Shown here: positions 2 through 25,543 of the stretch, piece after piece
Layout: each line of letters begins with the position of its first letter
How positions within the stretch are numbered: the stretch's first letter is position 1
Made by a program: the position numbers and the translations under genes
Notes under the pieces: model-generated
Seen by the model: the letters and a program-made list of their open reading frames with translations, nothing else
The model's database searches: none
Told to the model about the DNA's origin: nothing
Source: a virus
Virus record (IMG/VR): IMGVR_UViG_3300027963_000269
Coordinates: 1-27,951 of that record
Strand: one strand, 5' to 3'
Length of the DNA stretch: 27,951 nucleotides

Positions 2-685
2 ATGAATACAAATATCATTCATTATGCAAAGAAATATAACGTAAAAAAGTTAATTGCATTTTTATCCACATGTGTTTTTCCTGATAAAGTAGAATACCCT
101 TTAAATGAAACTAAAATACAATTAGGGCCACCACACACATCGAACGACGCATACGCATATGCTAAGAGAATGTCACAAGTACAGATATCAGCATATAATG
201 AACAATACGGTACAAATTATTTTTGTGTAATTCCTACAAATGTCTATGGACCAAATGACAATTACAATTTAGAAAATAGTCATGTGTTACCTGCAATTAT
301 TCATAAATGCTATAATGCAATTACTAACAACACTTATCTTGAACTTTGGGGTGATGGTTCTCCTTTGAGAGAATTTATTTATTCAAAAGACATTGCCAAA
401 ATTTGTGATATATTAATTAACAAATATGATAGTACTGAACCTGTAATCTTATCAACATCACAAGAATTACCAATTAAAGATGTTGCAAATATGATTGCCA
501 AAATAATGGGTTACAAAAAAGAAATCAAGTGGGATATTACAAAACCATCTGGTCAATTTAGAAAACCATCAGATAATTCAAAATTAAAATCAATCATTGG
601 AGATTTTGAATTTACTTCACTCGAAAAAGGTTTGGAAGAGACTATCGACTCCTTTATACAAAACTATAAAGATTTGAGAAAATAA
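2..685 (+). CDS. fcl: GDP-L-fucose synthase, 5'-truncated (NAD-dependent epimerase/dehydratase)
   Basis: This looks like the C-terminal two thirds of an extended short-chain dehydrogenase of the GDP-L-fucose synthase (WcaG/Fcl) type. That enzyme epimerises and reduces GDP-4-keto-6-deoxymannose to GDP-L-fucose in the cytoplasm. Visible family features are the STCVFP segment (active-site Ser/Thr and Cys), the catalytic pair in AYAYAKRM (YxxxK), the PTNVYGPNDNY substrate-loop region, and the WGDGSPLREFIY motif that is very characteristic of Fcl. The N-terminal Rossmann glycine motif is missing, so the ATG at position 2 is internal and the gene begins before the window. The next gene, phoH-like, follows after 16 bp. 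Two glycosyltransferase genes 1.6 kb downstream suggest a sugar-nucleotide and transfer cassette. A general NDP-sugar epimerase is the alternative, but the WGDGSPLREFIY motif favours Fcl. Confidence 0.88.
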   Translation: MNTNIIHYAKKYNVKKLIAFLSTCVFPDKVEYPLNETKIQLGPPHTSNDAYAYAKRMSQVQISAYNEQYGTNYFCVIPTNVYGPNDNYNLENSHVLPAIIHKCYNAITNNTYLELWGDGSPLREFIYSKDIAKICDILINKYDSTEPVILSTSQELPIKDVANMIAKIMGYKKEIKWDITKPSGQFRKPSDNSKLKSIIGDFEFTSLEKGLEETIDSFIQNYKDLRK

Positions 686-701
686 ACTTTAAATAAGAAA
701 A

Positions 702-1433
702 ATGAGCAGAGGAACAAAAAAACAACCATTACAACCATCAACAACCGAAACCGTAGTAAAAACAAAAAAACAACTAATAAACACAATACTAAAGAAAAAA
801 ACAAAAGATAAATTTTTAAGCGAAAGTCAAAAGGAGTACTACACAAAATTAATAAATAATCAGATAACAATATGTTCAGGACCAGCGGGTGTTGGTAAAA
901 GTTATATTGCAATGAAATGTGCTATAGACCTTTTGTCTGACCCTGAAACAAGTTATGAAAAAATTATTATTGTAAGACCCGCTGTTGAAGCCGAAGAAAA
1001 ATTAGGTTCACTTCCAGGTAATGTTGAAGAAAAATTGGACCCTTACATTTTCCCTTCCTACTATTTGTTAAACAAAATTATAGGAAAAGAAAATAGGGAA
1101 AAATTAAAAGATATTGAAGCAATCGAAGTTTTTGCCTTAGCCTATATGAGGGGTATGAATATCGATAATTCTATTTTGATTTTTGAAGAAGCACAAAATT
1201 CAACTCCATCTCAAATGAAATTACTTCTTACAAGAATTGGTTTCAATTCAAAATTTTTTATCTCAGGTGACTTAGAACAATTTGACAGACATAAAGATAA
1301 AACACAGACTGGCCTTTGGGATGCCGTGAAAAAATTCCAAGATTTTAATGGCGTTGGTATTCATGAATTTAGTGATGAGGATGTTGTAAGAAATCCATTG
1401 ATAACTAAAATATTAAAAAGATACGAAGAATGA
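702..1433 (+). CDS. phoH: PhoH-like P-loop ATPase
   Basis: A 243-aa protein of the PhoH family, common in marine and freshwater T4-like phages. A basic Lys/Thr-rich N-terminus (residues 1-40) precedes the ATPase core. The core has a Walker A motif GPAGVGKS at about residues 60-67, IIVRPAVEAEEKLGSLPG (the conserved PhoH signature RP..E.gE.lGfLPG), Walker B ILIFEEAQN near residue 158, and the sensor-like ISGDLEQ near 188. The family binds ATP and is linked to RNA metabolism or phosphate stress; its exact role in phages is unsettled. The start at 702 is the first ATG after the fcl stop and has no Shine-Dalgarno sequence. The stop overlaps the next start by 4 bp (ATGA), so the two genes are probably translationally coupled. 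Confidence 0.93.
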   Translation: MSRGTKKQPLQPSTTETVVKTKKQLINTILKKKTKDKFLSESQKEYYTKLINNQITICSGPAGVGKSYIAMKCAIDLLSDPETSYEKIIIVRPAVEAEEKLGSLPGNVEEKLDPYIFPSYYLLNKIIGKENREKLKDIEAIEVFALAYMRGMNIDNSILIFEEAQNSTPSQMKLLLTRIGFNSKFFISGDLEQFDRHKDKTQTGLWDAVKKFQDFNGVGIHEFSDEDVVRNPLITKILKRYEE

Positions 1434-2020
1434 GAATTGCAATAGAATTGAATGGAGTTTTAAGAGATACCCTCAAAAAAATTCAACAAGAATATGAAAA
1501 ATGGTATTTAAATAATCCATTTAAAGAAGATGATGAAAAATCAAATTATGAAGTTTTGTCAGACTTAACTAGCTTAGAAATTTCAAAACATTTAAAATTC
1601 AAAGATGAAGATGAAGTTTACAATTTTTTATATAAAGAACACACAATGGAAATTTTTGGACATGCGGGTTCTGTTGAAACATCCAGTATGATGGACTTTA
1701 ACGATTTTTATATTGATATGAGAGACAACCATGACATTTTAATAGTATCTGATGAAATTGGTAAATCTAAGCCAGCATCTCTTTTTTTCATTTCCAAATT
1801 TGGGTGTCTTGTTGAAACTGTAAAATTTTATTCAGAATCCACAATTAATTCGTTATGGGATTCAATAGACGTTTTACTTACCGCAAATCCTAAACTATTA
1901 TTAAACCATCCTGAAAATAAAATTGTGATAAAATATAACACAATTTACAATTCAAAAGTAGAAACAGAACACTCAATATCAACAATTAAAGAACTTAAAT
2001 CAAAAATAGAAAAATTATGA
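1430..2020 (+). CDS. HAD-like protein with degenerate catalytic motif
   Basis: A 196-aa protein whose start, MRIAIELNGVLRDT, matches the HAD hydrolase motif I pattern hhhhDxDGxhxxT. Both catalytic aspartates are replaced: Glu at residue 6 and Asn at residue 8. Later segments also fit a HAD layout: ILIVSDE (motif II position, Ser), then a Lys in GKSKPASLFFISKFG, and an IDVLLTANPKLLL segment where the motif IV acids would sit. With the nucleophile lost it is probably not an active phosphatase and may have a binding or structural role. It overlaps phoH by 4 bp and the next gene by 4 bp, so it is in the same transcription unit. The HAD assignment is by pattern only; a non-HAD Rossmann fold cannot be excluded. 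Confidence 0.6.
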   Translation: MRIAIELNGVLRDTLKKIQQEYEKWYLNNPFKEDDEKSNYEVLSDLTSLEISKHLKFKDEDEVYNFLYKEHTMEIFGHAGSVETSSMMDFNDFYIDMRDNHDILIVSDEIGKSKPASLFFISKFGCLVETVKFYSESTINSLWDSIDVLLTANPKLLLNHPENKIVIKYNTIYNSKVETEHSISTIKELKSKIEKL

Positions 2021-2298
2021 TAAATGTATTAGGAGAAAATTATTACATTGATTTAGATGAAATTGAACAATACTTAGATATGTCTGATGAAAGTTCTAAC
2101 GAAATTTTATCAGGAAATACTGAAATGAAAATTAACATCATAAAATTTGAAATGGTTAAAATGTTATTGGAAACAATATTATCTGAACAAGAAGTTATAG
2201 ACGAAAAACTAGGAATGAAAAGTAATTCAAACACAAGTATCCCATTCAGACTGGCATTTAACAGTCTTTTAAATAAAAAACTTATCAATCATTATTAA
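2017..2298 (+). CDS. Small conserved-looking protein of unknown function
   Basis: A 93-aa acidic protein I do not recognise. The N-terminal half has a short hydrophobic-acidic segment (NVLGENYYIDLDEIEQYLDM). The C-terminal half is predicted helical by eye (KFEMVKMLLETILSEQEVIDEKLG) and ends in FRLAFNSLLNKKLINHY. No Cys motif, signal peptide or membrane span is visible. It is coupled by a 4-bp overlap to the HAD-like gene and lies 1 bp before the GT-B gene, so it is an integral part of the plus-strand unit. Tight packing and phage-like codon use support it as real. Its function is unknown. Confidence 0.7.
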   Translation: MINVLGENYYIDLDEIEQYLDMSDESSNEILSGNTEMKINIIKFEMVKMLLETILSEQEVIDEKLGMKSNSNTSIPFRLAFNSLLNKKLINHY

Positions 2299-2299
2299 T

Positions 2300-3352
2300 A
2301 TGGAAAAAACAACTCAAGAAAAAATTAAAAAATCAATTGAGATTTTACGTGACAAAAAAGCAAGAATTTATTTTCTTGTACAAGACACAAAAGGAAACGC
2401 CAAAGCTTCAGTTAGATTTATCTATCAAATGGCAAAAGCGTTATACGACAATGGGTATAACCCAATAATTCTTCACGAAAAAAATGACTACACTGGTGTT
2501 GTGGCTTGGTTAGAAGAAGAGTATATGAAAATACCACATAAATCAATCGAAGGACAAAATTTGGAAATTTCACCTGAAGATTTTTTAATCTTACCTGAAA
2601 TTTTTGGTTTTGTTATGGACCAAGTTAAAAACTTACCTTGTGGTAAAATTGTTCTAACACAACAATATGCATTTATGTTAGAAACTTTACAACCAGGTCA
2701 ATCGTGGAATCAATTTGGGTTTTTTAAATGCATGACAACAACAGAAACTCAAAAAGATTACATTGAAAAGATTATGAGACAGTCGTCTTTTGACATTGTA
2801 AAACCATACATAAGTGAATCATTCTCACCAAAAGAATTACCAGCAATGCCTATTGTTGCCGTTCATGCTAAAGAACAAAATGATGCCATCAATTTAATTA
2901 AAGCATTTTATTTAAGATTCCCACAATACAGATGGTTTACATTCAGAGACATGAGAGGATTATCTGAAAAGGAATTTGCAAATTCTTTAAAGGATTGTTT
3001 TTTAAGTGTATGGATTGATGAAAAAAGTGGATTTGGTACATTCCCATTAGAATCTATGGCAACTAATGTTCCTGTTATTGGAAAAATTCCTGACTTAAAA
3101 CCAGAATGGATGACCGAAGAAAATGGAATTTGGATTGATGACGTTACGTTAATGACAGAATTTATTGCAGACTTTATACAAAATTGGTTAGAAGATAACA
3201 TCAAACCTGAATTATATTCTGCAATGAAAGAAACCGCATCAAAATACCAAAATAAACAAGAATTCGAATCAAAAGTTTTATCCATCTTTGAAGGATATCT
3301 AAACGTAAGAGCAGATTCTTTTGAACAACAAATTTCTAAAACCGAAGAATAA
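2300..3352 (+). CDS. Glycosyltransferase, GT-B fold (GT1/GT4-like)
   Basis: A 350-aa protein resembling retaining GT4-type glycosyltransferases. The N-terminal Rossmann-like half starts near residue 22 with ARIYFLVQDTKGNAKASVRF, where the small-residue loop precedes a helix as in GT-B acceptor domains. The C-terminal nucleotide-sugar half includes VAVHAKEQNDAINLIKAF and, at about residues 244-260, GFGTFPLESMATNVPVIG, which matches the E-x7-E/“EamA.G.PVi” donor-binding motif. It would transfer a sugar from a nucleotide donor in the cytoplasm; donor and acceptor cannot be read from sequence. It is followed after 1 bp by a GT-A transferase and is preceded upstream by fcl, so GDP-fucose is a plausible donor by context only. 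Confidence 0.82.
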   Translation: MEKTTQEKIKKSIEILRDKKARIYFLVQDTKGNAKASVRFIYQMAKALYDNGYNPIILHEKNDYTGVVAWLEEEYMKIPHKSIEGQNLEISPEDFLILPEIFGFVMDQVKNLPCGKIVLTQQYAFMLETLQPGQSWNQFGFFKCMTTTETQKDYIEKIMRQSSFDIVKPYISESFSPKELPAMPIVAVHAKEQNDAINLIKAFYLRFPQYRWFTFRDMRGLSEKEFANSLKDCFLSVWIDEKSGFGTFPLESMATNVPVIGKIPDLKPEWMTEENGIWIDDVTLMTEFIADFIQNWLEDNIKPELYSAMKETASKYQNKQEFESKVLSIFEGYLNVRADSFEQQISKTEE

Positions 3353-3353
3353 T

Positions 3354-4160
3354 ATGAATAACAAATTTCCAGTATCAATTATACTACCAATTAAATCTTC
3401 AAAATCAAAAAACTTTGAAGAATATTTTAATAAAGCAATTCAATCAATACACACCCAAAAAGTTGGTATTGAAGAATTAGTTATTGTACACACATCAGAA
3501 GAATCTCTTGTTGAACATTTAAACAATTATGATTTCAGCGGATTAACTGTAACAAAATTGGAATATAAAGACACTCCAAACTATTGTTCTCAAGTTAATC
3601 ATGGAATTAAAAATGCTAAAGGTGAATGGATTTCATTATTTGAGTTTGATGATGAATATTCTTCGATTTGGTTTGATAATGTGAAAAAATATTCGGAATC
3701 ATATCCTAACGTTCAAATGTTTTTACCTGTTGTAGTAGAAACTGACGAAAAGGGTGTCTTTGCAGGATTTACTAATGAAGCAACCTTTGCAGCAAATTTT
3801 ACACAAGAAATGGGATTTTTAACTAATGAAACTCTTCAAGATTATCAAAACTTTCAAACCGCAGGTTGTGTCATCAAAAAAGAAGTGATTGAAGATTTTG
3901 GAGGTTTCAAACCTTCGATAAAATTAACTTTCGTATATGAATTTTTATTAAGATTATCATACAATTCTGTTTCAATTATGACAATTCCGAGGTTAGGATA
4001 TAAACACACAAATATGAGAGAAGGTTCAATTTTTTGGAACTACAAATTTGGTGAAGTAAAAATGATTGAAGATGAAGTTAAATTTTGGGTACAAACAGCG
4101 AAAAAAGAATATTTCTTTGTTGACGACAGAGTCATAAAATATGAATCAGCAAATGCATAA
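3354..4160 (+). CDS. Glycosyltransferase family 2-like (GT-A)
   Basis: A 268-aa protein starting MNNKFPVSIILPIK, the usual GT2 first strand (VSIIIPxxN-like). After it come HGIKNAKGEWISLFEFDDEYS, where the “a.Ge.i.flDaDD” strand carries an FDD-type metal/nucleotide motif, and FQTAGCVIKKEVIEDFGGFKP, the common “g.....k.v.e.iGgFde” acceptor segment. I chose the ATG at 3354, 1 bp after the preceding stop, over an in-frame ATG 33 bp upstream inside the previous gene. The earlier start would only add a repeat-like peptide and lose the tight gene junction. The stop overlaps the next start (TAATG at 4158-4162). The first Asp of the canonical DxD is Glu-Phe-Asp-Asp here, so activity is likely but not certain. 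Confidence 0.82.
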   Translation: MNNKFPVSIILPIKSSKSKNFEEYFNKAIQSIHTQKVGIEELVIVHTSEESLVEHLNNYDFSGLTVTKLEYKDTPNYCSQVNHGIKNAKGEWISLFEFDDEYSSIWFDNVKKYSESYPNVQMFLPVVVETDEKGVFAGFTNEATFAANFTQEMGFLTNETLQDYQNFQTAGCVIKKEVIEDFGGFKPSIKLTFVYEFLLRLSYNSVSIMTIPRLGYKHTNMREGSIFWNYKFGEVKMIEDEVKFWVQTAKKEYFFVDDRVIKYESANA

Positions 4161-13755: not shown

Positions 13756-13965
13756 ATGAAAAAATTACTTTTTATTTTATTGTCGATAGGGTTTGTTTCT
13801 TGTTCTTCTCCAAAGAAAGCATTAGTCAAAATGCCTAAATGGGAAAAAGAACATGTTGGTAGTAAAAGACAAATAAGAAAATACACAAAAGTATTTGTTA
13901 AAAATCTCTACGATACTACAAAATTAAAGGATACTGTTGAAATTGAAACTATTATTCAAAACTAG
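13756..13965 (+). CDS. Small predicted lipoprotein
   Basis: A 69-aa protein, MKKLLFILLSIGFVSCSSPK at the N-terminus: two Lys, a 10-residue hydrophobic core and a lipobox-like FVSC with the lipidated Cys at residue 16, then Ser-Ser-Pro. The mature part is about 54 residues, basic (KKALVKMPKWEKEHVGSKRQ) and soluble, so it would be membrane-anchored and face the periplasm or cell surface. I chose the ATG at 13756 over a GTG at 13642, because it puts the signal peptide at the N-terminus and sits right after a host-type promoter. The 3' end overlaps the convergent gene by 14 bp. Possible roles are superinfection exclusion or an outer-membrane spanin (Rz1-like); neither is proven. Confidence 0.72.
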   Translation: MKKLLFILLSIGFVSCSSPKKALVKMPKWEKEHVGSKRQIRKYTKVFVKNLYDTTKLKDTVEIETIIQN

Positions 13966-15514
13966 GTCTAACTATAACACCCATAGTATTTTTGGTGTTA
14001 GGTAAGTTGTACGGTGAAAAATATAATCCTTCTCCAACAGAAATTAATCCATTTTCTCTAATATATTTACCTTCCCTTTCTTTAGTAGAAATTGGTACAA
14101 TAGGTAGACTAACTTTGAATTGTGTATTTATTTTAGTGTTGTACTTTGCCAATTTGTTTGAATAAGGATTCATAAAAAATTGAACATAAGTTTTAACTTT
14201 TGGAAGAACCGTAACTAATAATGATTCTCCTTGATTAACTTTTTCTACAATTTCAAAATTATCATTATTACTAAATAAATCGGTATTTGGTTTACCAGCA
14301 ACAAAACTTAATCCTGTCGTTTGAATGTCATTCAAAAATTTTTGTTGGTTTTCAACCTCTATTTGTTTTTCTTTTGCAATTCTTTCTTGTTCCGCCTTAG
14401 TTGCTGCATCTTTTTTGTCTTTCTCTGCTTGTGCATCTGCATTCATTTCGTCACCTAATCTCTTCATTTCTGCCGCTGAAGTTGTTTGGTCAACTTTAAT
14501 AGGATTTCCACAACCATCTAAAAACATAAGTACTTTACTACTTAAATCTCCTCTAGTTGCTTGAGGTGCAACGCATGGATTTGGAAACGTTTGATTAGGA
14601 AATAATACGTTTTTTTTATCATTATATATATAAATTTCAGGTACAGACGAATGACAATGTGCCGACTTACATTTGTACCATAACATTAATTTGTTGTTGA
14701 AATTTGGTTGATTGACTATTGAATTGACCATGTCTTGAGTTACAGTTAAATCTGCTCGTCTATTACAATTTTCTCCAGTACAACCCTCATTATTAAGATT
14801 GGCAACACCAATTAAAGTTTTATTCAAATAAACGTCAAACATTGCCTCATCACAAGTATGACCACCTCTACAAGGACGCTCATTTGATGGAGTTTGATTT
14901 ATATACATAAACCTTATATTCAAACCTAACAAACATTCTGTAGTTTCTTTTCCTGATGATTCAACTGAAAATTTAATAAATTGGTCTTTTAAAAATTTTG
15001 GGTCTCCTGGATTATCTCCTGGTTTAAAAGGTTCACGTTTTAAACCAAGCTGAACATTTGTTTTAGGCTCAGGAATTGTTGGCATGTATGGTATGATTTT
15101 TTTATCGTATAAACCTTGAAAAAAGTCTGTTAATATTTTTTTCATAGTATCCCCTCTTAACTTTGCCAATTCACCAGAATTTAACTTTTTGTTGTTTTCT
15201 TTGTCATAATTACTTGGTGTAGATTCTCCAGTTGTGATTTGGATACTCATAGGGACACCTTTTTTATCATTGATGTAAGTTGCAATTTGGTTCAACACAT
15301 TTTCAATTTGTTGTTTTTGAGATGGGTCTAAAGCATTTTGAGAGTGATAACCTGATTTAAATGTTTGAGCAGGCAATTCAAATTGTTTAGATGGTAAATC
15401 CGTTGTAATTTTCATTTGCTCATTTATCAAATAATGATTCTTTGTTGCACTTTCATGCATCATTAATATTCTTTTAACTTCATCTGATGAGATATTCCAA
15501 GATTGCTTAATCAT
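13952..15514 (-). CDS. Cys-rich OmpA-like protein with INE/Q processing-like site
   Basis: A 520-aa protein. Residues 1-33 form a helix ending in I30-N31-E32/Q33 (KRILMMHESATKNHYLINEQ), again fitting the prohead-protease rule. Residues ~66-132 resemble an OmpA/MotB-type peptidoglycan-binding fold (IENVLNQIATYIND, SIQITTGESTPSN, LNSGELAKLRGDTMKKILTD). Residues ~190-335 hold nine Cys (194, 215, 221, 245, 250, 282, 287, 314, 335) in a beta-rich domain. Residues ~345-395 are a Glu/Lys/Ala coiled coil, and the C-terminus is beta-rich. I chose the ATG at 15514 over a TTG at 15544, because the TTG abuts the capsid-gene terminator and would place the candidate promoter element inside the gene. It is a solitary gene downstream of gp23. 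It is possibly a virion protein contacting the cell wall. Confidence 0.78.
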   Translation of the reverse strand: MIKQSWNISSDEVKRILMMHESATKNHYLINEQMKITTDLPSKQFELPAQTFKSGYHSQNALDPSQKQQIENVLNQIATYINDKKGVPMSIQITTGESTPSNYDKENNKKLNSGELAKLRGDTMKKILTDFFQGLYDKKIIPYMPTIPEPKTNVQLGLKREPFKPGDNPGDPKFLKDQFIKFSVESSGKETTECLLGLNIRFMYINQTPSNERPCRGGHTCDEAMFDVYLNKTLIGVANLNNEGCTGENCNRRADLTVTQDMVNSIVNQPNFNNKLMLWYKCKSAHCHSSVPEIYIYNDKKNVLFPNQTFPNPCVAPQATRGDLSSKVLMFLDGCGNPIKVDQTTSAAEMKRLGDEMNADAQAEKDKKDAATKAEQERIAKEKQIEVENQQKFLNDIQTTGLSFVAGKPNTDLFSNNDNFEIVEKVNQGESLLVTVLPKVKTYVQFFMNPYSNKLAKYNTKINTQFKVSLPIVPISTKEREGKYIRENGLISVGEGLYFSPYNLPNTKNTMGVIVRPSFE

Positions 15515-15529
15515 TCTAAAAACTTTATA

Positions 15530-15539
15530 TAATAAATAC
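15530..15539 (-). promoter_or_regulatory. GTATTTATTA element (minus sense) before the Cys-rich gene
   Basis: One-mismatch copy of the recurrent 10-mer, 15 nt before the chosen ATG at 15514 and directly after the capsid-gene terminator. That is where a new promoter is needed. Candidate late promoter core. Confidence 0.45.
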
Positions 15540-15552
15540 TCCAATAAATAAA

Positions 15553-15597: not shown

Positions 15598-17403
15598 TTA
15601 TCTTAATTCTCTCAAATCAAATGTTCTTACTCCATCAACTGTGATTCTACCGTAGAATCTGTTGTTCACCATTTTCTTAGCGTATCTAGTCATGATACCT
15701 TTGATTGGTGTGAAGTTGAATGGATTGTACATTGTTGGAGTTAATTGTAATGGTACATACGGTGCGTAGATGTAACCTGTGTCAAGTAAAGATGTACCTT
15801 TGTGTCCCATTAACACTTGGTTTGGTGGGAAGTAAGGGTCTCTATACACTTGGTATCTACCAGCTAAAGTACCAACTCTTTCAATACCCATGTTGTATTG
15901 GTCTTGCTCTGGAGCCGCGTTTGATACGTGGAAATATTCCAAATCATCAAAGATTGCAGAGATTTCAGAAGAAACCACAATCCAGTTAGCACCACCTCTT
16001 AAAGTAGATTTGTGGATTTGAGCTGAAATTTGGTTAATTGCTGTAATCAATGTTTGGTTCCAGTCTTTTTGAGTGTAAGGAACAGCAGAAGAACCTAATC
16101 TCTTCCAACCGTTGTAATCCCATCTCAAGTTCCAAGCTGCACCTTTTCTAAGGTCTCTTAAGATTTCTCTATCGATTTCAGCAGCAACTTGCTCAGATAA
16201 TAAAGCTGTTAATTCAGCTTCAGCATCGATGTTATGGAATGCTGCAACGTCTTGTGCCATTTCTGGAGACCATTGAGCTCTTAATTTTCTTTCAGTTACA
16301 GAAACTGTTACTGACATAAGGTCAAACGAAACTTCACCAATCTTATCTTCGAATTCTAAGTTCTTATAGATTCTATAAGTAGCTGTGAATGCATTGTTAA
16401 TAGCCGTTGAAGAAGAGAATGTTGAACCTGTGTAACCGTCTAATGAACCACCGCAAGTGATACATACAGGAACCTGTAAGTCAACTTCTAAGTAGATTTT
16501 ACCTTGAGCATCACATAAGTTGTCATATTGACCACCGTCTGTTTTAGATGCTGGGAAAGTTAATGTAGCGTTGTTGTTACCATACTGAACAATACCTTTA
16601 CCATATCTTTGAGTTACAACTCTGAATAAGTAAGGGTTCGAAGTGTTACCTGAAGTGTAATCATTACCTGAAACACCATAGATAGTTAAATCAGATAAGA
16701 AAGCTTCATTATCCATTGGTTGACCATCAGGACCGATTAATTTACCAGCTCCATCAGATGCGAAACCTGACATAACAACTAATACTTTTCTATAGTTACC
16801 TGTAGTGTAAGCAGAAGCTACTAATTGGTCAGCTAACCATGCAACAGTAGCAACTGGTGCTGTGATAGCTGAATATTGTCCTTTAGAATAGTCAAATAAA
16901 CCTGGAGGGTCTAATGCTGGTTCGTTACCTTCGTAGAATCTATCATAAAGGTCTTTAGTGTTGTTGTAGTCATAACCACTGTTTGGAGTTTGGTCATCGT
17001 TAGCATTAGGTGCTCCGTAAGGTGCGAAATGCTCTCCTGTGTTTGCCAAATTCAAAGGGTCTTGATATGACTGAATGTTAGGTACAAAGTAGAATAATTT
17101 ACCGATTGGTAAGTTCATTGCTTGTACAGAAACGATGTCGTTTGCTAATAATTTAGAGAAAACTCTTCTAACGATAGGGAAAACAACTGTTTCAAATGCA
17201 CCTGTATCAGATGTAGATGATGCTTCATTGATTAAAAATGATGCTTGGTTTTCGTAAAGTTGAGCTACGTTCTCTCTCATGTGACCTTTAAGACCTTCTA
17301 AAAAGCCTAATTTGTCCCATTTGTTGATTGTGTCTTCTTTGATAACTTTAAGGTGCTTAAGACCGATGTTACCAACAAGACCTGATTCTAATAATGCTCC
17401 CAT
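15598..17403 (-). CDS. 23: Major capsid protein, T4 gp23-like (precursor)
   Basis: A 601-aa HK97-fold major capsid protein of the T4 family. Residues ~43-60 (RENVAQLYENQASFLINE) align with the end of the T4 propeptide, which finishes FLTE/A; cleavage here is predicted after E60 (INE/A). Other gp23 signatures follow: VFPIVRRVFSKLLANDIVSV and QAMNLPIGKLFYF, the P-domain helix RKLRAQWSPEMAQDVAAFH with AEAELTALLSEQVAAEIDRE, and the C-terminal DTGYIYAPYVPLQLTPTMYN, GIMTRYAKKMVNNRFYGRI and VDGVRTFDLRELR. It is longer than T4 gp23 (521 aa). The extra length probably lies in the variable region around residues 160-320, which includes a VCITCGG Cys pair. It is the last gene of the head operon, 35 bp after the scaffold-like gene, and is followed by a strong terminator. 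Confidence 0.97.
   Translation of the reverse strand: MGALLESGLVGNIGLKHLKVIKEDTINKWDKLGFLEGLKGHMRENVAQLYENQASFLINEASSTSDTGAFETVVFPIVRRVFSKLLANDIVSVQAMNLPIGKLFYFVPNIQSYQDPLNLANTGEHFAPYGAPNANDDQTPNSGYDYNNTKDLYDRFYEGNEPALDPPGLFDYSKGQYSAITAPVATVAWLADQLVASAYTTGNYRKVLVVMSGFASDGAGKLIGPDGQPMDNEAFLSDLTIYGVSGNDYTSGNTSNPYLFRVVTQRYGKGIVQYGNNNATLTFPASKTDGGQYDNLCDAQGKIYLEVDLQVPVCITCGGSLDGYTGSTFSSSTAINNAFTATYRIYKNLEFEDKIGEVSFDLMSVTVSVTERKLRAQWSPEMAQDVAAFHNIDAEAELTALLSEQVAAEIDREILRDLRKGAAWNLRWDYNGWKRLGSSAVPYTQKDWNQTLITAINQISAQIHKSTLRGGANWIVVSSEISAIFDDLEYFHVSNAAPEQDQYNMGIERVGTLAGRYQVYRDPYFPPNQVLMGHKGTSLLDTGYIYAPYVPLQLTPTMYNPFNFTPIKGIMTRYAKKMVNNRFYGRITVDGVRTFDLRELR
17221..17226 (-). other. Predicted gp23 propeptide cleavage site (E60/A61)
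   Basis: The codons for E60 (17224-17226) and A61 (17221-17223) follow I58-N59. The I-x-E/A pattern and its place just before the first conserved core region match the T4 gp23 maturation site (FLTE/A). The site is inferred by analogy. Confidence 0.7.
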
Positions 17404-17438: not shown

Positions 17439-19028
17439 TTACCCTAATTTACCCATTAAATCTTTCATTCTTAAGAATTGAGGATTTTCATAAGTTTTTG
17501 ATTCAATTAGAGTTGATGAAGAACCTGTAGAAACTTGTTTGTTTAATTTTGTTTCAACTGATTCATTCATTGGTTTTGAATCAACTTTAGATAATTCACC
17601 TTTAATTGATTGATAAAGATTTTTAGATTCTTTCAAAGTTTCAACATCGTCAAATCTTCTTAAAATATTAATCTTTTCTTTCTTAGTTGTTGAATGTTCA
17701 GTAAACAATCTTGTAGCATAAGCTAAGTTAGAATTGAAAATAGCAACTTCATTAAGTTTTTCTCTGAAAACATTTAATGCTTTTCTATATTCTTCATTCT
17801 TTTCTCTTAACATACTAACTTCAGAATTAACTGATTCATTTTTGATTGCTGTGTTAAATTTAGAATGAGCTCTTTGTTTTGGTAAACCGCCCTTTCTAAA
17901 ATCAGAACCCATACCTAGTGTTCTAGCAGCTTCTTTAGTTTCTTCCTTATCGGAAACTTTCTTTTTTAAAGTGTTAACTTTTTTAGTTACATCACCTTCT
18001 TTTGTTTCTGCCTTTACAACTTTAGATTTACCTTCCATGTTAGCTCCCTTCTTGTAGTCGAATTTAGCTTTACCAGTACCCATTGTTTTAGGACCTTCTT
18101 TTTTGTCCTCTTTAAATCCACCAGAAGCTTTTGACTTGTAAGTGAATTTAGGGCCTGAACCAATTCCAACACCTTTAGGTTTAACTGTAGATTTTGCTTC
18201 TCTAACAGTTCTTCTTGGGTTATAAGATTCGTCCAAATCGTCCATTTCTTCTTGTTCGTCCATTTCGTCTTGTTCGTCAAGGTCAGACTCTTCGTCCATT
18301 TCTTCCTCTTCGTCCATTTCGTCTTGTTCGTCCATTTCTTCTTGTTCGTCCATTTCGTCTTGTTCGTCAAACTCAATTTCGTACATAATTTCTTCTTCGT
18401 CATCAACTTCAAATTCATCATCAGTTTCATCTAATGAATGACCTTTTTTATTAAAAATTGCATCAATAACTTCATCAGTTGTCATGTCGTCATCTTGAGA
18501 TTCTTCAGAATCATCAAATTCAAAATCCATGTCCATTTCTTCTTTAATTTTCATTTTTTTATTTTTTGAATTATCCTTGGACTCTCCAAGCTTTACAAGA
18601 TATTCAGAATCAGTATCGTTGTCTGTAAGGTGAATGTTCTCTCCGTCTTTTTTAACGATGATACCATCTTCTTCACCCATAGCTTTAAATACCTTTAAAA
18701 TTTCCTCGTCAGAAGCGTCAGTCAAATCTATTGGACTTTCTTCATCAGAATCCATGTCTATGTCCATATCAACGTCCATATCCATTTCATCATCATTATC
18801 AGTATCCATGTCAACGTCAACATCTGTATCAGTGTCATCGTCTTCCATGTCTACATCTAACCCAACCTCTTCTTCATCGTCTTGTTCAGATAGAGATTCT
18901 TTTACTAACTGGTTGATTTCTTCCTTCATTGTAGAAGCAAGTATTCCTTTTGCATTTTCGGCGATTGCCTCTTCAACATTTTTCATTTGAATGAGTGCCT
19001 CTTGTACTACATTTTTATTTTCTTGCAT
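17439..19028 (-). CDS. 22: Prohead core scaffolding protein, gp22-like by position; very acidic with repeats
   Basis: A 529-aa protein between the protease block and gp23, the place of T4 gp22. The first 49 residues are helical and end EEINQLVKESLSEQ, so L46-S47-E48/Q49 is a good protease site. Residues ~52-95 are an Asp/Met/Val repeat tract (DVDMDTDNDDEMDMDVDMD) and residues ~198-264 a Glu/Asp/Met/Gln repeat tract based on DEQ(D/E)EM. Residues ~270-395 are Lys/Gly-rich, and the C-terminal ~130 residues are helical (MLREKNEEYRKALNVFREKL, VAIFNSNLAYATRLFTEHST), the part most like a scaffold. T4 gp22 is 269 aa, so this is about twice as long. It has its own upstream element at 19051-19060. The scaffold role is inferred from position, charge and helicity. 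Confidence 0.75.
   Translation of the reverse strand: MQENKNVVQEALIQMKNVEEAIAENAKGILASTMKEEINQLVKESLSEQDDEEEVGLDVDMEDDDTDTDVDVDMDTDNDDEMDMDVDMDIDMDSDEESPIDLTDASDEEILKVFKAMGEEDGIIVKKDGENIHLTDNDTDSEYLVKLGESKDNSKNKKMKIKEEMDMDFEFDDSEESQDDDMTTDEVIDAIFNKKGHSLDETDDEFEVDDEEEIMYEIEFDEQDEMDEQEEMDEQDEMDEEEEMDEESDLDEQDEMDEQEEMDDLDESYNPRRTVREAKSTVKPKGVGIGSGPKFTYKSKASGGFKEDKKEGPKTMGTGKAKFDYKKGANMEGKSKVVKAETKEGDVTKKVNTLKKKVSDKEETKEAARTLGMGSDFRKGGLPKQRAHSKFNTAIKNESVNSEVSMLREKNEEYRKALNVFREKLNEVAIFNSNLAYATRLFTEHSTTKKEKINILRRFDDVETLKESKNLYQSIKGELSKVDSKPMNESVETKLNKQVSTGSSSTLIESKTYENPQFLRMKDLMGKLG
18238..18368. repeat. In-frame ~18-bp tandem repeats inside the gp22-like gene
   Basis: About seven imperfect 18-bp units of the type TCGTCCATTTCNTCTTGT on the plus strand, encoding the hexad DEQ(D/E)EM on the minus strand. 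They are directly adjacent and in frame, so expansion and contraction would change the acidic tract length without a frameshift. They are not a CRISPR: there are no spacers. Confidence 0.85.
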
Positions 19029-19705: not shown

Positions 19706-20422
19706 TTATTTACCTAAATAATCGGATAATTTTTTCATTAAATCAATAGATTTACCAACTGATGGTGATTCTTGTTTAATTTTTTTCTCTTCATCTAAAT
19801 TTTCTTCGTACTTATGTCTATCATCAGCATTTGAAAATAAATAAGCACCTGGTGTTGATGGAGACGAAACTAAGTCAAAACAAATTAATTCGAAGTCATC
19901 TTGTACTTCATTTCTTTCTCCCACTTTTTTTAATGAGCCAACCCCTCTTGAAGAAACACCCATAGTAACTCCTTGTCTCATCAAATTTGCCGCTTGGTCT
20001 CCTTTTGTTGAAACAATTCCTCTTTCGTGAAAACCAGGAGAGGTTAAAAGTTTTAACTTTCCCATCAATATATTTTTATCCCACCAAATGTCTGTAATGA
20101 TGTGGGATACTCTATCTAAATCAATTAGTGAAGATTCAGGGTGATTCAATTCAGATGTAGATAAACCTTTGGCAATTGTTTGTTTGTATCTATCGGCCTC
20201 TCTCTTTAGTATTTTTTCAGGATAAAATCTTCCGTTTCTATTAGGGGTGTCATATTTTTGTAAAACAGCATAAAATTCAAAAGGATTTCTATAATCCATT
20301 GCCGCCGCTTCTTTAAGCATTTTAAAATTTAAATCATCTTTTGGGGAAACCCAACCAGCATCCATCTCAATTAAAATGCCATGACCTAATTCATTTGCCT
20401 CTAATATTCTTAAATTTTTCAT
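19706..20422 (-). CDS. 21: Prohead core protease, T4 gp21-like
   Basis: A 238-aa serine protease of the herpesvirus assemblin-like fold used for head maturation. The N-terminal strand GHGILIEMDAGWVSP leads to FYAVLQKYDTPNRNGRFYPE, a hallmark of phage prohead proteases. STSELNHPESS holds the catalytic His at residue 94, and GVTMGVSSRGVG holds the catalytic Ser at residue 157 or 158. T4 gp21 is 212 aa. It is expected to cleave capsid, core and internal proteins after (I/L)-x-E, and itself; NLDEE near residue 214 is a possible self-cleavage site. An exact ATATTTATTA element lies 12 nt before the ATG. The position between portal and scaffold is canonical. Confidence 0.95.
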   Translation of the reverse strand: MKNLRILEANELGHGILIEMDAGWVSPKDDLNFKMLKEAAAMDYRNPFEFYAVLQKYDTPNRNGRFYPEKILKREADRYKQTIAKGLSTSELNHPESSLIDLDRVSHIITDIWWDKNILMGKLKLLTSPGFHERGIVSTKGDQAANLMRQGVTMGVSSRGVGSLKKVGERNEVQDDFELICFDLVSSPSTPGAYLFSNADDRHKYEENLDEEKKIKQESPSVGKSIDLMKKLSDYLGK

Positions 20423-20459: not shown

Positions 20460-20900
20460 TTATTGCTCTTTAAGTTTTTTAGAGGTGGAAAACTCAAAAT
20501 ATTTATTTTGATTTATATTGTTTTTGAATATGTTTTTCACAATTGATTTAATTGAATCTTTAATTTCTTGTGATTTGAAATCCAACTCACAATTAGTATA
20601 TAAATTTACCTCTAAATTAAAAAATGATTTTTTTTCATGTGATATTCCACTTGTTCTTAAATCTAAATCAACAATACTTTTTTCTTGGAAAACTGATAGA
20701 TTAATTGAATTGAAAACTGAATGTTTTATTTCTCTACTTAAATTACAAACTACTCTATTCCAATTATCATGTTCAAATTTTGGAGAGACCCATGATTGAA
20801 TGTTAATGTATACTGATTTTAAATCTTTGGAGTCTACCGTTCCGTAAATTGATTTTATTGGGTTAAAAAGATTTAACTTTACACTTTTCCCTTTCTTCAT
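20460..20900 (-). CDS. Protein of unknown function between portal and protease genes
   Basis: A 146-aa protein, basic at the N-terminus (MKKGKSVKLNLFNPIKSIYG), with a mixed alpha/beta body: SVYINIQSWVSPKFEHDNWN, REIKHSVFNSINLSVFQEKS, FFNLEVNLYTNCELDFKSQE, and a helical basic C-terminus. There is no known motif. It lies in the interval that in T4 holds the small prohead core genes 67 and 68, so a head-assembly role is possible. The sequence is not obviously like either, and it is not strongly acidic as gp67 is. The 95-bp gap upstream also carries the start region of the divergent bS21 gene. Confidence 0.7.
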   Translation of the reverse strand: MKKGKSVKLNLFNPIKSIYGTVDSKDLKSVYINIQSWVSPKFEHDNWNRVVCNLSREIKHSVFNSINLSVFQEKSIVDLDLRTSGISHEKKSFFNLEVNLYTNCELDFKSQEIKDSIKSIVKNIFKNNINQNKYFEFSTSKKLKEQ

Positions 20901-20995
20901 TAATTTTCATATTAATAATGTTTATTTTATTAAAAAATAAGACATATTAATCCCATAGTCAAAAATTTTTGAAAATATTAAGATATTTGTAATAT

Positions 20996-21181
20996 ATGAT
21001 AATAGTTGAAATTAAAAATGGTGATAACATTGAGAAGGCATTGAAGTCCTTGAAATCAAAGGTTATCAAAACAAAACAAAACCAAATTCTGTTTGAAAGA
21101 AAAGAGTTTACTAAAAAGTCTGTATCAAAAAGAACACAAAAATTAAAAGCGATTTATATTCAAAAGAAAAAAATAAGTTAA
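20996..21181 (+). CDS. rpsU: Ribosomal protein bS21, phage-encoded
   Basis: A 61-aa basic protein with the full layout of small-subunit protein bS21. It starts MIIVEIKNGDNIEKALKSLK (family: “.v.v.dgE.id.AlkrfKrk..k”), continues KVIKTKQNQ, then FERKEFTKKSVSKRTQKLKA (family: “RreFekPs..rr.k...”), and ends AIYIQKKKIS. The form with KAIY at residues 51-54 matches Bacteroidota bS21, where Tyr54 is, as I recall, one of the residues that hold the 16S anti-Shine-Dalgarno tail. No Shine-Dalgarno sequence precedes the ATG. A TAnnTTTG-like box with one mismatch (GATATTTG, 20982-20989) ends 6 nt before it. It is the only plus-strand gene in the head block, and its stop overlaps the convergent stop at 21178. 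Confidence 0.88.
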   Translation: MIIVEIKNGDNIEKALKSLKSKVIKTKQNQILFERKEFTKKSVSKRTQKLKAIYIQKKKIS

Positions 21182-21888: not shown

Positions 21889-21898
21889 TAATAAATAT
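21889..21898 (-). promoter_or_regulatory. ATATTTATTA element (minus sense) before the helical core-like gene
   Basis: Exact copy of the recurrent 10-mer, 12 nt before the ATG at 21876, ending at the last base of the portal stop codon. Same sequence and spacing as in front of gp21. Confidence 0.5.
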
Positions 21899-23745
21899 TA
21901 GGAGTTTAGTAACTTATCCAATTCTTTTGAAATTTCTCCCAAAGATTCTTGTCCATGCCCTAAATCAATGAATTTTTTTCCTTCAATTAAGTCATTTTCA
22001 ACTAAAATATTTAAATTACTTAATTTAGATTCAGGCGCTAATTCAGGACCTGGTGGAGGAGGTGCTTCTCCTTCAGCTGGTGGTGGCGGTGCACTCATAT
22101 CTTCTCCACCTGGTGGTAGTGAAGGAGCGGCTCCCATATTTGGTGGTGTCTCAGTTCCTGTAACAATTCCACCCGAAGCAGCACCTGTTCCACCAGAAGT
22201 GTTACCATATAATTTATCTATATTATCAAATACTCCTGATTTTGTAATAACTGTTGCAGTTGCTTTCAATTCTTCACCCACAGCTCTTTCTAACCTTTGT
22301 TGTTGTAAATCAAGTTTAACTTCTTCATCAGACCAACCAAAAATATGTTTTTTAGCCCATGTAGATGAAGTCGCTTGTATTCCGTTTCCAGGGTCTGCAA
22401 CCAAATCTTTATATAATAATACTTTTTCTTTCCAAACATCAATTTTTAACAAATCAGCCTGAGTAGAAGGATTACTTAATCCTAATGTAAAATTAGATAA
22501 CTCATCTTCAAATCCTAATAAAAATAAATGTATAATTGCAACTTTATTTAATTCTTGCAACATACTTTTTTGAATTCTATTAATTGTACGAGCAAATCTA
22601 ATATCCTGTAATGATAAGTTTTTACCATCACCCACAACTTCTTCAAATCCTAAAAACGCTTTAGGTACACGAAGTGCTGTTAATAATTTCTTTTGGATAT
22701 ATTCTATATCGGCAATCTCAGATAAGTTTGTGGCACCTGGTAAAGTTGTAATTGGGTCTGGTGCTGCAGGGTCTCTAACAGGAATAAAATAATCTTGGTC
22801 AACTGCCATCTGATTAAATCTCATATCCACATTACCTGTCTTACTATCTACAATTTGTTCTCTTTTGAATTTGTTGGCCACACGTTGTACATATGCTTCA
22901 ACATCATCATCGTTCATGTTTCCAACAAACACTTTGAACATTCTTCTTTCAGGAGCTCTTGAAGTACGATAAATCAACATCGCATCTTCCGATAACAATA
23001 ATTGTTTCCAAATTCTTCTTGCTTTTTCTAACATAGAAGTACCATATGGAAGCTTTCTATCATCACCTAACAATCTAAAGTGAGCAATTTCCCATGATTG
23101 GAATGTCATATTCTTATTTTTCCAATCAAAATGTAATGGCTTTCTATCTTCAGGATTTTCAGGTTCTACAGTAATTTTTTGACTTGTTCCTGCCTCTCTG
23201 CGTTCAATTTCGATTGTGGGTAATTGTTGACAACCTACAACACCTCTTTCAGGGTCTAACTTCAAATAAACGAAGTTATCACCATACTTACAAGTGTTTC
23301 TTGTCCACATTGGTAAGTTGGTATTAATATCTAAGTTGTTGTTGAATAAATCCGCCAACACTCCCTTGATTCTTTTTGATTCAGAATAAATTTGTAAAAT
23401 AAATCCATCTTCGTTTGTTGTTGTGGATTCTTCAGCATAAATGTCTAAAGCTGCTGAAATTTCAGGAGTATACTCCATCGATTCGTAATCGTACTGTGCA
23501 GATAATCTTGATGGCTCATAATAAATTGCTTGAGAATATAAGTTGTTTTCAACCTTAGCCCATTGATTTGATAAGTAATATGATTGTTGTGCCTGTAATT
23601 TTTCTTTTTCGTATTCTTCTCTACTTTTGGTGCGTAACAGCTCCTTTTTATCAAACTTGTACGTTGGATAATCCTGATTTAATAATGAATTTGGACCAAA
23701 GGTTTTTGATAACCTTTGCCACACCGTAAGATTTTGTTCGCTCAT
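21898..23745 (-). CDS. 20: Portal vertex protein, T4 gp20-like
   Basis: A 615-aa portal of the T4 type, the dodecameric ring at the DNA-packaging vertex. Clear signatures are SAQYDYESMEYTPEISAALD and IYAEESTTTNEDG near the N-terminus, then LPMWTRNTCKYGDNFVYLKL, a YGTSMLEKARRIWKQLLLSE wing/stem helix, RTSRAPERRMFKVFVGNM, and TALRVPKAFLGFEEVVGDGK. T4 gp20 is 524 aa. The extra length includes a Gly/Pro-rich disordered stretch (residues ~520-570, PPGGEDMSAPPPPAEGEAPP) followed by a short ordered tail (FIDLGHGQESLGEISKELDK). It lies 40 bp after the terminase gene, with an upstream element in that gap. Confidence 0.95.
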   Translation of the reverse strand: MSEQNLTVWQRLSKTFGPNSLLNQDYPTYKFDKKELLRTKSREEYEKEKLQAQQSYYLSNQWAKVENNLYSQAIYYEPSRLSAQYDYESMEYTPEISAALDIYAEESTTTNEDGFILQIYSESKRIKGVLADLFNNNLDINTNLPMWTRNTCKYGDNFVYLKLDPERGVVGCQQLPTIEIERREAGTSQKITVEPENPEDRKPLHFDWKNKNMTFQSWEIAHFRLLGDDRKLPYGTSMLEKARRIWKQLLLSEDAMLIYRTSRAPERRMFKVFVGNMNDDDVEAYVQRVANKFKREQIVDSKTGNVDMRFNQMAVDQDYFIPVRDPAAPDPITTLPGATNLSEIADIEYIQKKLLTALRVPKAFLGFEEVVGDGKNLSLQDIRFARTINRIQKSMLQELNKVAIIHLFLLGFEDELSNFTLGLSNPSTQADLLKIDVWKEKVLLYKDLVADPGNGIQATSSTWAKKHIFGWSDEEVKLDLQQQRLERAVGEELKATATVITKSGVFDNIDKLYGNTSGGTGAASGGIVTGTETPPNMGAAPSLPPGGEDMSAPPPPAEGEAPPPPGPELAPESKLSNLNILVENDLIEGKKFIDLGHGQESLGEISKELDKLLNS

Positions 23746-23785: not shown

Positions 23786-25543
23786 TTACGCACCAAATAA
23801 CCATCCATATTTTTGGTAATCGGCTCTACTTGGTCCACTATTTGCTGGTCTACCATCTCTACCCATCTGTGGTACCATAGGGTTAAAAAATTCTGAAGCG
23901 TTTTTATTTTCATTAACCACTGTTGACCATGAGTTCAACATTGCCTTTGTATGATTTACTACTTTGGTTAAAGATTGGAAAGATTTTTCCGCAACATAAA
24001 TTGCCATAGACATTCCCATTATACAGTCATCATGATGTCCTTTTTGGTGGTCGGGTCTACCATTTACATAAATGAAAGTATTCATTTCATTATATAATCT
24101 ATGAGAGTAAACTTTGAATCCATGTCTTACAGATTCTTCAAATGAAGCAATAATTTGAACCCTTTTATTGTTAAAATTAATACCAGGAATTTTTTCATTC
24201 ATTTTTGGGTCAAATTTCCATTTGTTTGTTGTATCAATGTTATCAACATACAATCCACCTCCATATGAAAGTTCTTGCATTTTTCTCGCTGTTGAAACTC
24301 CCATACCACCTGTAATATCAATCACACAATATGCGCTATATAAATTTCCCCACTTGTAAGCAATTTCGGCAATTACATCTGGTGGAACTTTTCCAACATA
24401 TTCTAACACTTGTTCTCTTTCGTCAAAATCAATGATTTGGATACACGAGAAGTCTTCTGAATCTCCACGAGATACATCGACACCCATAACGTATTTGTGA
24501 CCGTTTACGGGTTCTTTGAATATCCACAGTGACCCTCCCATAAGTTTTGCTTGGGGTTCACGTAATGTGTTTTTGGCAATACCTTGCATTAATTCTGATT
24601 CGAATACGTTGTCACCTGAACCTAAGAAGTTACATTCCAACTCCTGAGCCACCTTACGTCTGTCAAACTTCAATTTTTTAACCATCCCCTCAAACCAAGC
24701 GGAACATGGTTTATATCCTTGTTCCATATATTCTGTGGTAATTGAATGGTCTCTTTCGTATGGATTTTCTATCGATAAATTAATTACATCTTTTTCAGAA
24801 TATTCTTCCCTGTTTAATAAGAAGTGAACCAGGTCATTTGTTTTAACCATAAACAAATCTTTAGTATATCTTGGGTCACGGTACCAAAACATTTCAGATA
24901 TTTTAAAATCGTTCATGTTTCTTAATGACTGGTCGTAAATTTCGTAATAGATTTGGTCGTATCCGTTTGGTGTGGATACAACAATAACCTTACCACCCGT
25001 AGAAAGTGAGGCCATACACGCTGACCAGAAATCTCCGTCAGCCTCAATGAACGCCGCCTCATCAAAAATAAGTATAGTAGGGGTATAACCTCTCAACGCA
25101 TCCTTTGATGTTGCAACCGCTTTTACTTCACAGTCGTTAGTTAGTTTAAAATGTCTTTGTGAATTTTTTTCTTTTGAAAACCCTATACCAACCCATGATG
25201 GCCATTGTTCTGTAAAACTTCTAATCTTATTAGCCATCTCCACGGATGTATCTAATTTGTTGGCAATGATTAGAATTTTTTCAGGTTTTTGTTTTTTAGC
25301 AAATACTAATTTTTTAGACGCCCAAGCAGCAGTAACCGTTGTCACACCTGCCTGACGATACTTCAAAGCAATATTTTCATTGTAAGAATCATAATCTTCA
25401 ATAAGACTAACTTGGTCAGGAAATAAATCTAAGGGAACATACTTTGAAACCGTATTATCGTATGTTTGTAAGTAAGTACGAAGTGCGTAAGGAGTATTCC
25501 TCATACACTTCGTAACTTCTATAATTAATTGTTCTTTAGTCAC
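23786..25543 (-). CDS. 17: Terminase large subunit, T4 gp17-like
   Basis: A 585-aa packaging motor ATPase and nuclease. The Walker A segment is K61-Y-R-Q-A-G-V-T-T69, where the usual Lys before Ser/Thr is Val67; K61 at the start of the loop resembles the deviant Walker A of some terminases. Walker B TILIFDEA holds D161 and E162, and motif III is S190-T-P. The RNase H-like nuclease has D356 (VMGVDVSRGD), D409 (YCVIDITGG) and D505/D506 (HHDDCIMGMSMA). T4 gp17 is 610 aa. The start codon is GTG at 25543, 8 bp after the preceding stop; no ATG gives a complete N-terminus. It is followed directly by the portal gene, without sheath and tube genes between. Confidence 0.95.
   Translation of the reverse strand: MTKEQLIIEVTKCMRNTPYALRTYLQTYDNTVSKYVPLDLFPDQVSLIEDYDSYNENIALKYRQAGVTTVTAAWASKKLVFAKKQKPEKILIIANKLDTSVEMANKIRSFTEQWPSWVGIGFSKEKNSQRHFKLTNDCEVKAVATSKDALRGYTPTILIFDEAAFIEADGDFWSACMASLSTGGKVIVVSTPNGYDQIYYEIYDQSLRNMNDFKISEMFWYRDPRYTKDLFMVKTNDLVHFLLNREEYSEKDVINLSIENPYERDHSITTEYMEQGYKPCSAWFEGMVKKLKFDRRKVAQELECNFLGSGDNVFESELMQGIAKNTLREPQAKLMGGSLWIFKEPVNGHKYVMGVDVSRGDSEDFSCIQIIDFDEREQVLEYVGKVPPDVIAEIAYKWGNLYSAYCVIDITGGMGVSTARKMQELSYGGGLYVDNIDTTNKWKFDPKMNEKIPGINFNNKRVQIIASFEESVRHGFKVYSHRLYNEMNTFIYVNGRPDHQKGHHDDCIMGMSMAIYVAEKSFQSLTKVVNHTKAMLNSWSTVVNENKNASEFFNPMVPQMGRDGRPANSGPSRADYQKYGWLFGA

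Follow-up and report, generated by a model that had tools for sequence, protein, structure and literature searches.

A phage bS21 gene without a Shine-Dalgarno sequence carries a late-promoter-like element almost on its start codon

To our knowledge, bS21 is the ribosomal protein found most often in phages, and in Bacteroidota the level of bS21 decides whether ribosomes read Shine-Dalgarno (SD) sequences. Why, then, does a phage of Bacteroidota carry a bS21 gene, and how does the start region of this gene compare with that of host rpsU? These questions are raised by an rpsU-like gene in the window, by which we mean the whole viral record of 27,951 bases, probably a fragment, that was analysed here. 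Searches with Pfam and PHROG profiles identified terminase, portal, prohead protease, a gp23-type capsid protein and PhoH, as in a T4-like phage (Table 1), and contigs related to the window reach 317–321 kb, with phage genomes of 293–331 kb reported by Chen et al. 2022 (PMC9723584). Adjoining the capsid gene, positions 17,439–19,028 encode a long, acidic, repeat-rich protein (EEMDEQDEMDEQ...) that is scaffold-like, and positions 2–4,160 hold sugar-modifying genes, as in surface-modifying phages.

Table 1. Features of the window discussed in the text.
Feature	Coordinates	Strand	Evidence or remark
Epimerase	2..685
Glycosyltransferase-like	2300..3352 and 3321..4160
Candidate gp55-like late sigma factor, 248 aa	4160..4906	+	AlphaFold2 model, pLDDT 65
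Major capsid protein (gp23)	15598..17403	-	Pfam Gp23 4.5e-72
Prohead protease	19706..20422	-	Pfam Peptidase_S77 1.7e-22
Conserved neighbour, 146 aa	20460..20900	-	divergent from bS21
Late-promoter-like element TATTTGTA	20984..20991	+	ends 4 nt upstream of bS21 ATG
bS21 gene (rpsU-like), 61 aa, ATG start	20996..21181	+	Pfam PF01165, 7jil_z alignment
Codons 19–30 (LKSKVIKTKQNQ)	21050..21085	+	per-position comparison, 111 host vs 44 phage sequences
Tyr54 codon (anti-SD contact in F. johnsoniae)	21155..21157	+	translation, alignment
Conserved neighbour, 232 aa	21178..21876	-	convergent with bS21, stop codons overlap 4 nt
T4-type portal protein (gp20)	21898..23745	-	Pfam Portal_T4 1.4e-74
Terminase large subunit	23786..25543	-	Pfam Terminase_6N 2.5e-13; PHROG 2 6.8e-38

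The product of the rpsU-like gene matches the Pfam family Ribosomal_S21 (E = 4.5e-9; 36.3 bits, above the cut-off of 27), and in a phmmer search against the PDB its residues 1–59 aligned without gaps on residues 1–59 of F. johnsoniae bS21 (1.2e-8), bearing out a first-pass annotation that had called it a phage bS21 of Bacteroidota type. The alignment also places its Tyr54 on Tyr54 of the F. johnsoniae protein, the residue that stacks on A1534 (McNutt et al. 2023, PMC9976891), as that annotation had expected for an anti-SD contact. Two further IMG/VR contigs encode an identical protein (100%). The scan turned up 564 stretches coding for a relative, and 80 of these were kept as the bS21 loci examined here; no isolate record carries the phage gene. 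A median dN/dS of 0.04 over 322 pairs, which are related and non-independent, indicates purifying selection. The profile match, the hundreds of relatives and the low dN/dS rule out a chance or decaying reading frame, and the head-gene neighbours together with identical synteny in 80 loci rule out host contamination. We take the gene to encode a working bS21 that belongs to a large, T4-like phage of Bacteroidota, and this forms part of the best explanation of the locus.

Phages of this kind have been described before. Chen et al. (PMC9723584) reported 47 bS21-encoding phages with predicted Bacteroidetes hosts and a GC content of 31–34%, in which bS21 lies on the opposite strand between two hypothetical genes, near terminase, portal, protease and capsid, and in which residue 54 is tyrosine or another aromatic residue in all cases; they proposed that phage bS21 joins host ribosomes late. 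The window agrees with these phages at every point that could be checked, including its GC content of 31.3% (31.0–33.7% in the bS21 phages of that study), so that phage type, gene order, opposite-strand bS21, Tyr54 and the ribosome-substitution argument are already published. In our set, bS21 stands on the plus strand inside the minus-strand head-gene cluster, and the 232- and 146-residue genes flank it on the opposite strand in 80/80 bS21 loci.

We scored SD sequences as the pairing energy with a verified 16S tail, ACACCUCCUUUCU, which is present in 7 Flavobacteriales assemblies out of the 60 searched, a set in which rRNA genes are often missing; the 16S-tail pattern GGATCACC proved wrong for Bacteroidota and gave no matches, GGAACACC being the right one. 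The 30 starts of the window have a median of −1.8 and a best value of −6.0 kcal/mol, none lying at or below −7, which upholds the earlier impression that no start here has a convincing SD. Strong SD sequences are also rare elsewhere in related contigs, where 1.6% of 434 dereplicated starts reach −7 kcal/mol, as against 9.9% of mock windows. The bS21 start itself pairs at −0.6 kcal/mol, an extended SD being scored below −13, and an SD is absent from 48/48 distinct phage bS21 copies of the clade (best −2.4 kcal/mol), in line with the annotation's reading of the single gene. Against this, 111 Bacteroidota host rpsU genes, a set partly picked by similarity, show a median of −10.4 kcal/mol, with 32% at or below −13 and extremes to −21 (host mock windows, −2.05).

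McNutt et al. (PMC9976891) showed that hosts autoregulate bS21 by way of an extended SD in rpsU, which occurs in ~80% of their genome set. When Flavobacteriales were sampled evenly, −13 kcal/mol was reached by only 7 of 55 distinct rpsU genes. Another four have TGAGATG, a sequence complementary to an alternative anti-SD core, UCUCA, that has been reported in Chryseobacterium and its relatives, and most small-genome Flavobacteriales in this sample have an rpsU without SD. The fraction is far under the published one, the likely reason being that our sample takes in small uncultivated genomes. The statement that host rpsU is SD-dependent thus holds for part of the Flavobacteriales and fails as a general one; with only 7/55 host genes carrying the SD, escape of the phage gene from such autoregulation, which had also been proposed, therefore depends on the phage's host and is plausible where that host has SD-dependent control.

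Other phage bS21 lineages are also SD-less. A huge uncultured phage (LR756501, 735 kb; locus L494) has a bS21 that retains an SD, AAAGGAGGA, at −12.1 kcal/mol. Separately, a Tenacibaculum genome (G001) has, beside its SD-carrying bS21 gene (L211), another chromosomal copy that lacks an SD (L205), and a 72-kb 'viral' contig (L463) bears bS21 with a TGAGATG start region of Chryseobacterium type, and may be a host stretch or a provirus.

At the position of the extended SD of many hosts, the window has the promoter-like element TATTTGTA. It resembles [A/C]TATTTAT[A/T], the commonest upstream sequence of phage starts, which occurs within 45 nt of 193 of the 434 dereplicated starts (reverse complement, 32) and in at least half of the members of 15 of 34 gene families with at least three members (control, 3), counts that are inflated by shared ancestry and A/T richness. 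Counted across the whole window, bare TATTTAT is not enriched, with 17 occurrences against an expected 16.7. The gap from box to ATG peaks at 12–15 nt, with smaller classes at 3–5, 22 and 28 nt, and the bS21 box, taken as the motif or a variant with one or two mismatches, ends 3–8 nt from the ATG. Among 44 distinct bS21 upstream regions, 70% lie within one mismatch of the motif (19% in shuffles); the box is often TATTTGTA or TATTTTAT and not the exact consensus, and exact TATTTAT occurs in several of the most divergent representatives. The gene at 13,952–15,544 is listed with a TTG start that is probably wrong, as its relatives start at ATGATTAAACAA (MIKQSWNISS), directly after a GATATTTAT box.

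In T4, late transcription starts ~5 nt past the box. The fifth base past the phage box is A in 86% of cases with families equally weighted, and at the bS21 gene of the window this base coincides with the first letter of the ATG. Given a T4-like transcription start, the bS21 mRNA would be leaderless or nearly so, and we predict a transcript start at the ATG or a few nucleotides away. In F. psychrophilum, 5.5% of the mRNAs that have been mapped are leaderless (PMC9723704). In other phage bS21 lineages the box lies 14–16 nt upstream, and a leaderless mRNA is therefore not general. A host-type sigma promoter (TTG at −33, TAnnTTTG at −7) was considered and rejected for bS21, as the −33 TTG is missing at the right spacing; GATATTTG resembles the −7 element and, if real, would also leave a leader of only a few nucleotides. 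Published work on late promoters in T4-like phages of Bacteroidota was sought, and none was found. The window does encode a candidate late sigma factor: the helical model of the 248-residue protein matches sigmaE (Z 8.7; for region 2, Z 8.5 over 91 residues at 2.7 Å) and T4 gp55 (7d7c_F, Z 7.6), which suggests, with the modest confidence of the model, a sigma- or gp55-like protein, while a sequence search for sigma-factor identity returned no match. Elsewhere in the intergenic region that holds the bS21 box, TTGACT-N17-TATTTT (20,900–20,965, minus strand) precedes the 146-residue gene, a promoter type unlike the late box.

The absence of an SD and the element almost on the start codon suggest how the phage gene could be expressed when host rpsU is not. 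In F. johnsoniae, rpsU is poorly translated by ribosomes with intact bS21, an effect that is relieved by Y54A or by removal of the C-terminus, either of which frees the anti-SD (PMC9976891). The phage protein keeps the host-type docking end, its K51, A52, Tyr54 and Q56 being as in hosts. The reading that we prefer, tentatively as a whole, begins with late, SD-free and probably leaderless or nearly leaderless transcription of bS21, as the start region suggests. Such an mRNA would be translated without a free anti-SD, and a full complement of bS21 on the ribosomes would not silence it; unregulated late synthesis would leave the phage protein free to fill ribosomes by entering the bS21 site as 30S subunits assemble or exchange the protein. 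By analogy with F. johnsoniae genetics, these ribosomes may keep their anti-SD docked, and host bS21 synthesis would then stop where rpsU needs its extended SD, letting the phage copy win over host bS21 without any protease. That the phage has in this way hijacked the host feedback loop, its leaderless mRNA escaping while its product hides the anti-SD, silences host rpsU and leaves ribosomes phage-marked without destruction of host bS21, would be an unlikely extension.

Position 54 holds tyrosine in nearly all sequences of either kind, host (96%, n = 111) or phage (98%, n = 44), and this residue alone is therefore not diagnostic of a phage strategy. What sets the phage copies apart is the segment of residues 19–30, away from Tyr54, which is nearly invariant among them and differs from hosts (R21S, F23V, E/D24I, G27K, Q28, Q30). 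Phage bS21 is fixed for S21 (100%), I24, K27, Q28 and Q30 and nearly fixed for V23 and E5, as against R21 (100%), F23 and P5 in hosts; a similar segment, KxKV[IY][KQ][TS]KQ, recurs in divergent phage bS21 lineages. The window protein carries S21 and V23, at the positions of divergence noted by Chen et al., residues 21 and 23 (PMC9723584). An invariant block absent from hosts implies that selection also preserves something that the host protein lacks, and any altered behaviour of ribosomes carrying phage bS21 probably runs through these residues. This supports the specialised ribosomes of Chen et al., in which phage bS21 replaces the host's and its altered N-terminal half shifts mRNA choice to late phage transcripts, escape from autoregulation being incidental; the divergent residues were mapped to the mRNA side in that study. 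However, beyond short A-rich leaders no known motif sets phage mRNAs apart, and host mRNAs are SD-less too, so that we regard this as a possible but less likely account, and one compatible with the mechanism that we prefer.

The first-pass annotation had offered another purpose, that phage bS21 serves only to maintain replete, anti-SD-occluded ribosomes, which SD-less phage mRNAs would require. The SD-less phage starts, the retention of Tyr54 and the poor initiation of bS21-lacking ribosomes on SD-less mRNAs in vitro (PMC9976891) are all consistent with this idea. A replete ribosome is, however, the normal host state, and occlusion gives the phage no advantage because host mRNAs are SD-less as well. 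A natural comparison bears on the question directly: of 80 loci found through the 232-residue neighbour, 23 keep both neighbours without bS21, and for a 24th candidate (L333) the contig ends too early to judge. In 18 bS21-less loci inspected, a gap of ~138 nt contains a terminator-like hairpin and TTGACA-N17-TATATT, which the promoter-like sequence before the 146-residue gene of the window resembles. In the neighbour tree the bS21-less phages, represented by only four distinct proteins, form one clade (SH-aLRT 99) nested among bS21-bearing phages, and a single loss of bS21 is therefore the simplest history. A search for bS21 elsewhere in bS21-less contigs found none in 10 records of 13–75 kb, all fragments. 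Close relatives in which the gene is cleanly absent include L321, L329, L362, L363 and L378, along with other loci.

The bS21-less clade is equally SD-less and has kept the late-box motif, as judged from only 12 distinct starts; SD-less late genes as such therefore do not need bS21. Together with the residue 19–30 segment, which that purpose leaves unexplained and which lies outside the Tyr54 helix, this counts against the view that the phage carries bS21 just to benefit its SD-less mRNAs, and we consider that version improbable. The 232-residue gene was also considered as an obligate partner of bS21, an idea stemming from the bS21_CN statement of Chen et al. if it is the same gene (PMC9723584), and is ruled out in this role by its persistence in the 23 contigs. 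An extra-ribosomal or virion role, such as RNA binding or packaging of the protein, is suggested by the fixed place of bS21 in the head-gene cluster, with the same two neighbours and portal and protease nearby, but is very unlikely given the conserved ribosome-docking residues and the entry of a pelagiphage bS21 into E. coli ribosomes (PMC6375957).

Overall, this is a sound observation on a kind of phage gene already described, to which the testable start-region detail and the natural bS21-loss clade are new; as sister phages with and without the gene exist, the purpose of phage bS21 is directly testable.

The closest known systems are clades a–e of Chen et al. (PMC9723584), which share T4-like head genes, an opposite-strand bS21 between conserved hypothetical genes, an aromatic residue 54, a GC content of 31–34% and a bS21 closest to Bacteroidetes. 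The parts of that paper considered here do not treat the start region, to which we add the absence of an SD from all 48 phage copies set against host rpsU and the promoter-like element abutting the ATG in the SD's place; the invariance of the 19–30 block and its echo in divergent lineages are further additions. Chen et al. found bS21 gone below ~70% TerL similarity, whereas the newly found loss clade of 23 contigs, still SD-less, lacks it at 79–82% TerL identity. They mapped RNA reads with Bowtie2, and strand handling goes unmentioned in the same parts of the paper; the stop codons of bS21 and the 232-residue gene, which has its own late-promoter-like TATTTAT upstream, overlap and leave no space for a terminator, and read-through from this neighbour would therefore mimic bS21 expression if those data were unstranded. 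The autoregulated rpsU of Flavobacteriales (PMC9976891) encodes the same protein family with Tyr54 and predicted anti-SD docking, but the phage gene differs in lacking the extended SD, in its late-promoter-like element and in its replaced residues 19–30; McNutt et al. speculate on phage bS21, and the sections considered here say nothing of its start region. The bS21 of pelagiphage HTVC008M (Mizuno et al. 2019, PMC6375957) is likewise phage-encoded, and its entry into E. coli ribosomes has been shown, but it is of Alphaproteobacterial type, belongs to another host and lacks the context of anti-SD sequestration. Finally, the T4 late promoter TATAAATA, read with gp55, is also an A/T box of 8 bp that closely precedes late genes, and the window encodes a gp55- or sigma-like candidate of its own; the phage box, TATTTATA/T, is a different 8-mer at the expected place, with start sites that are predicted.
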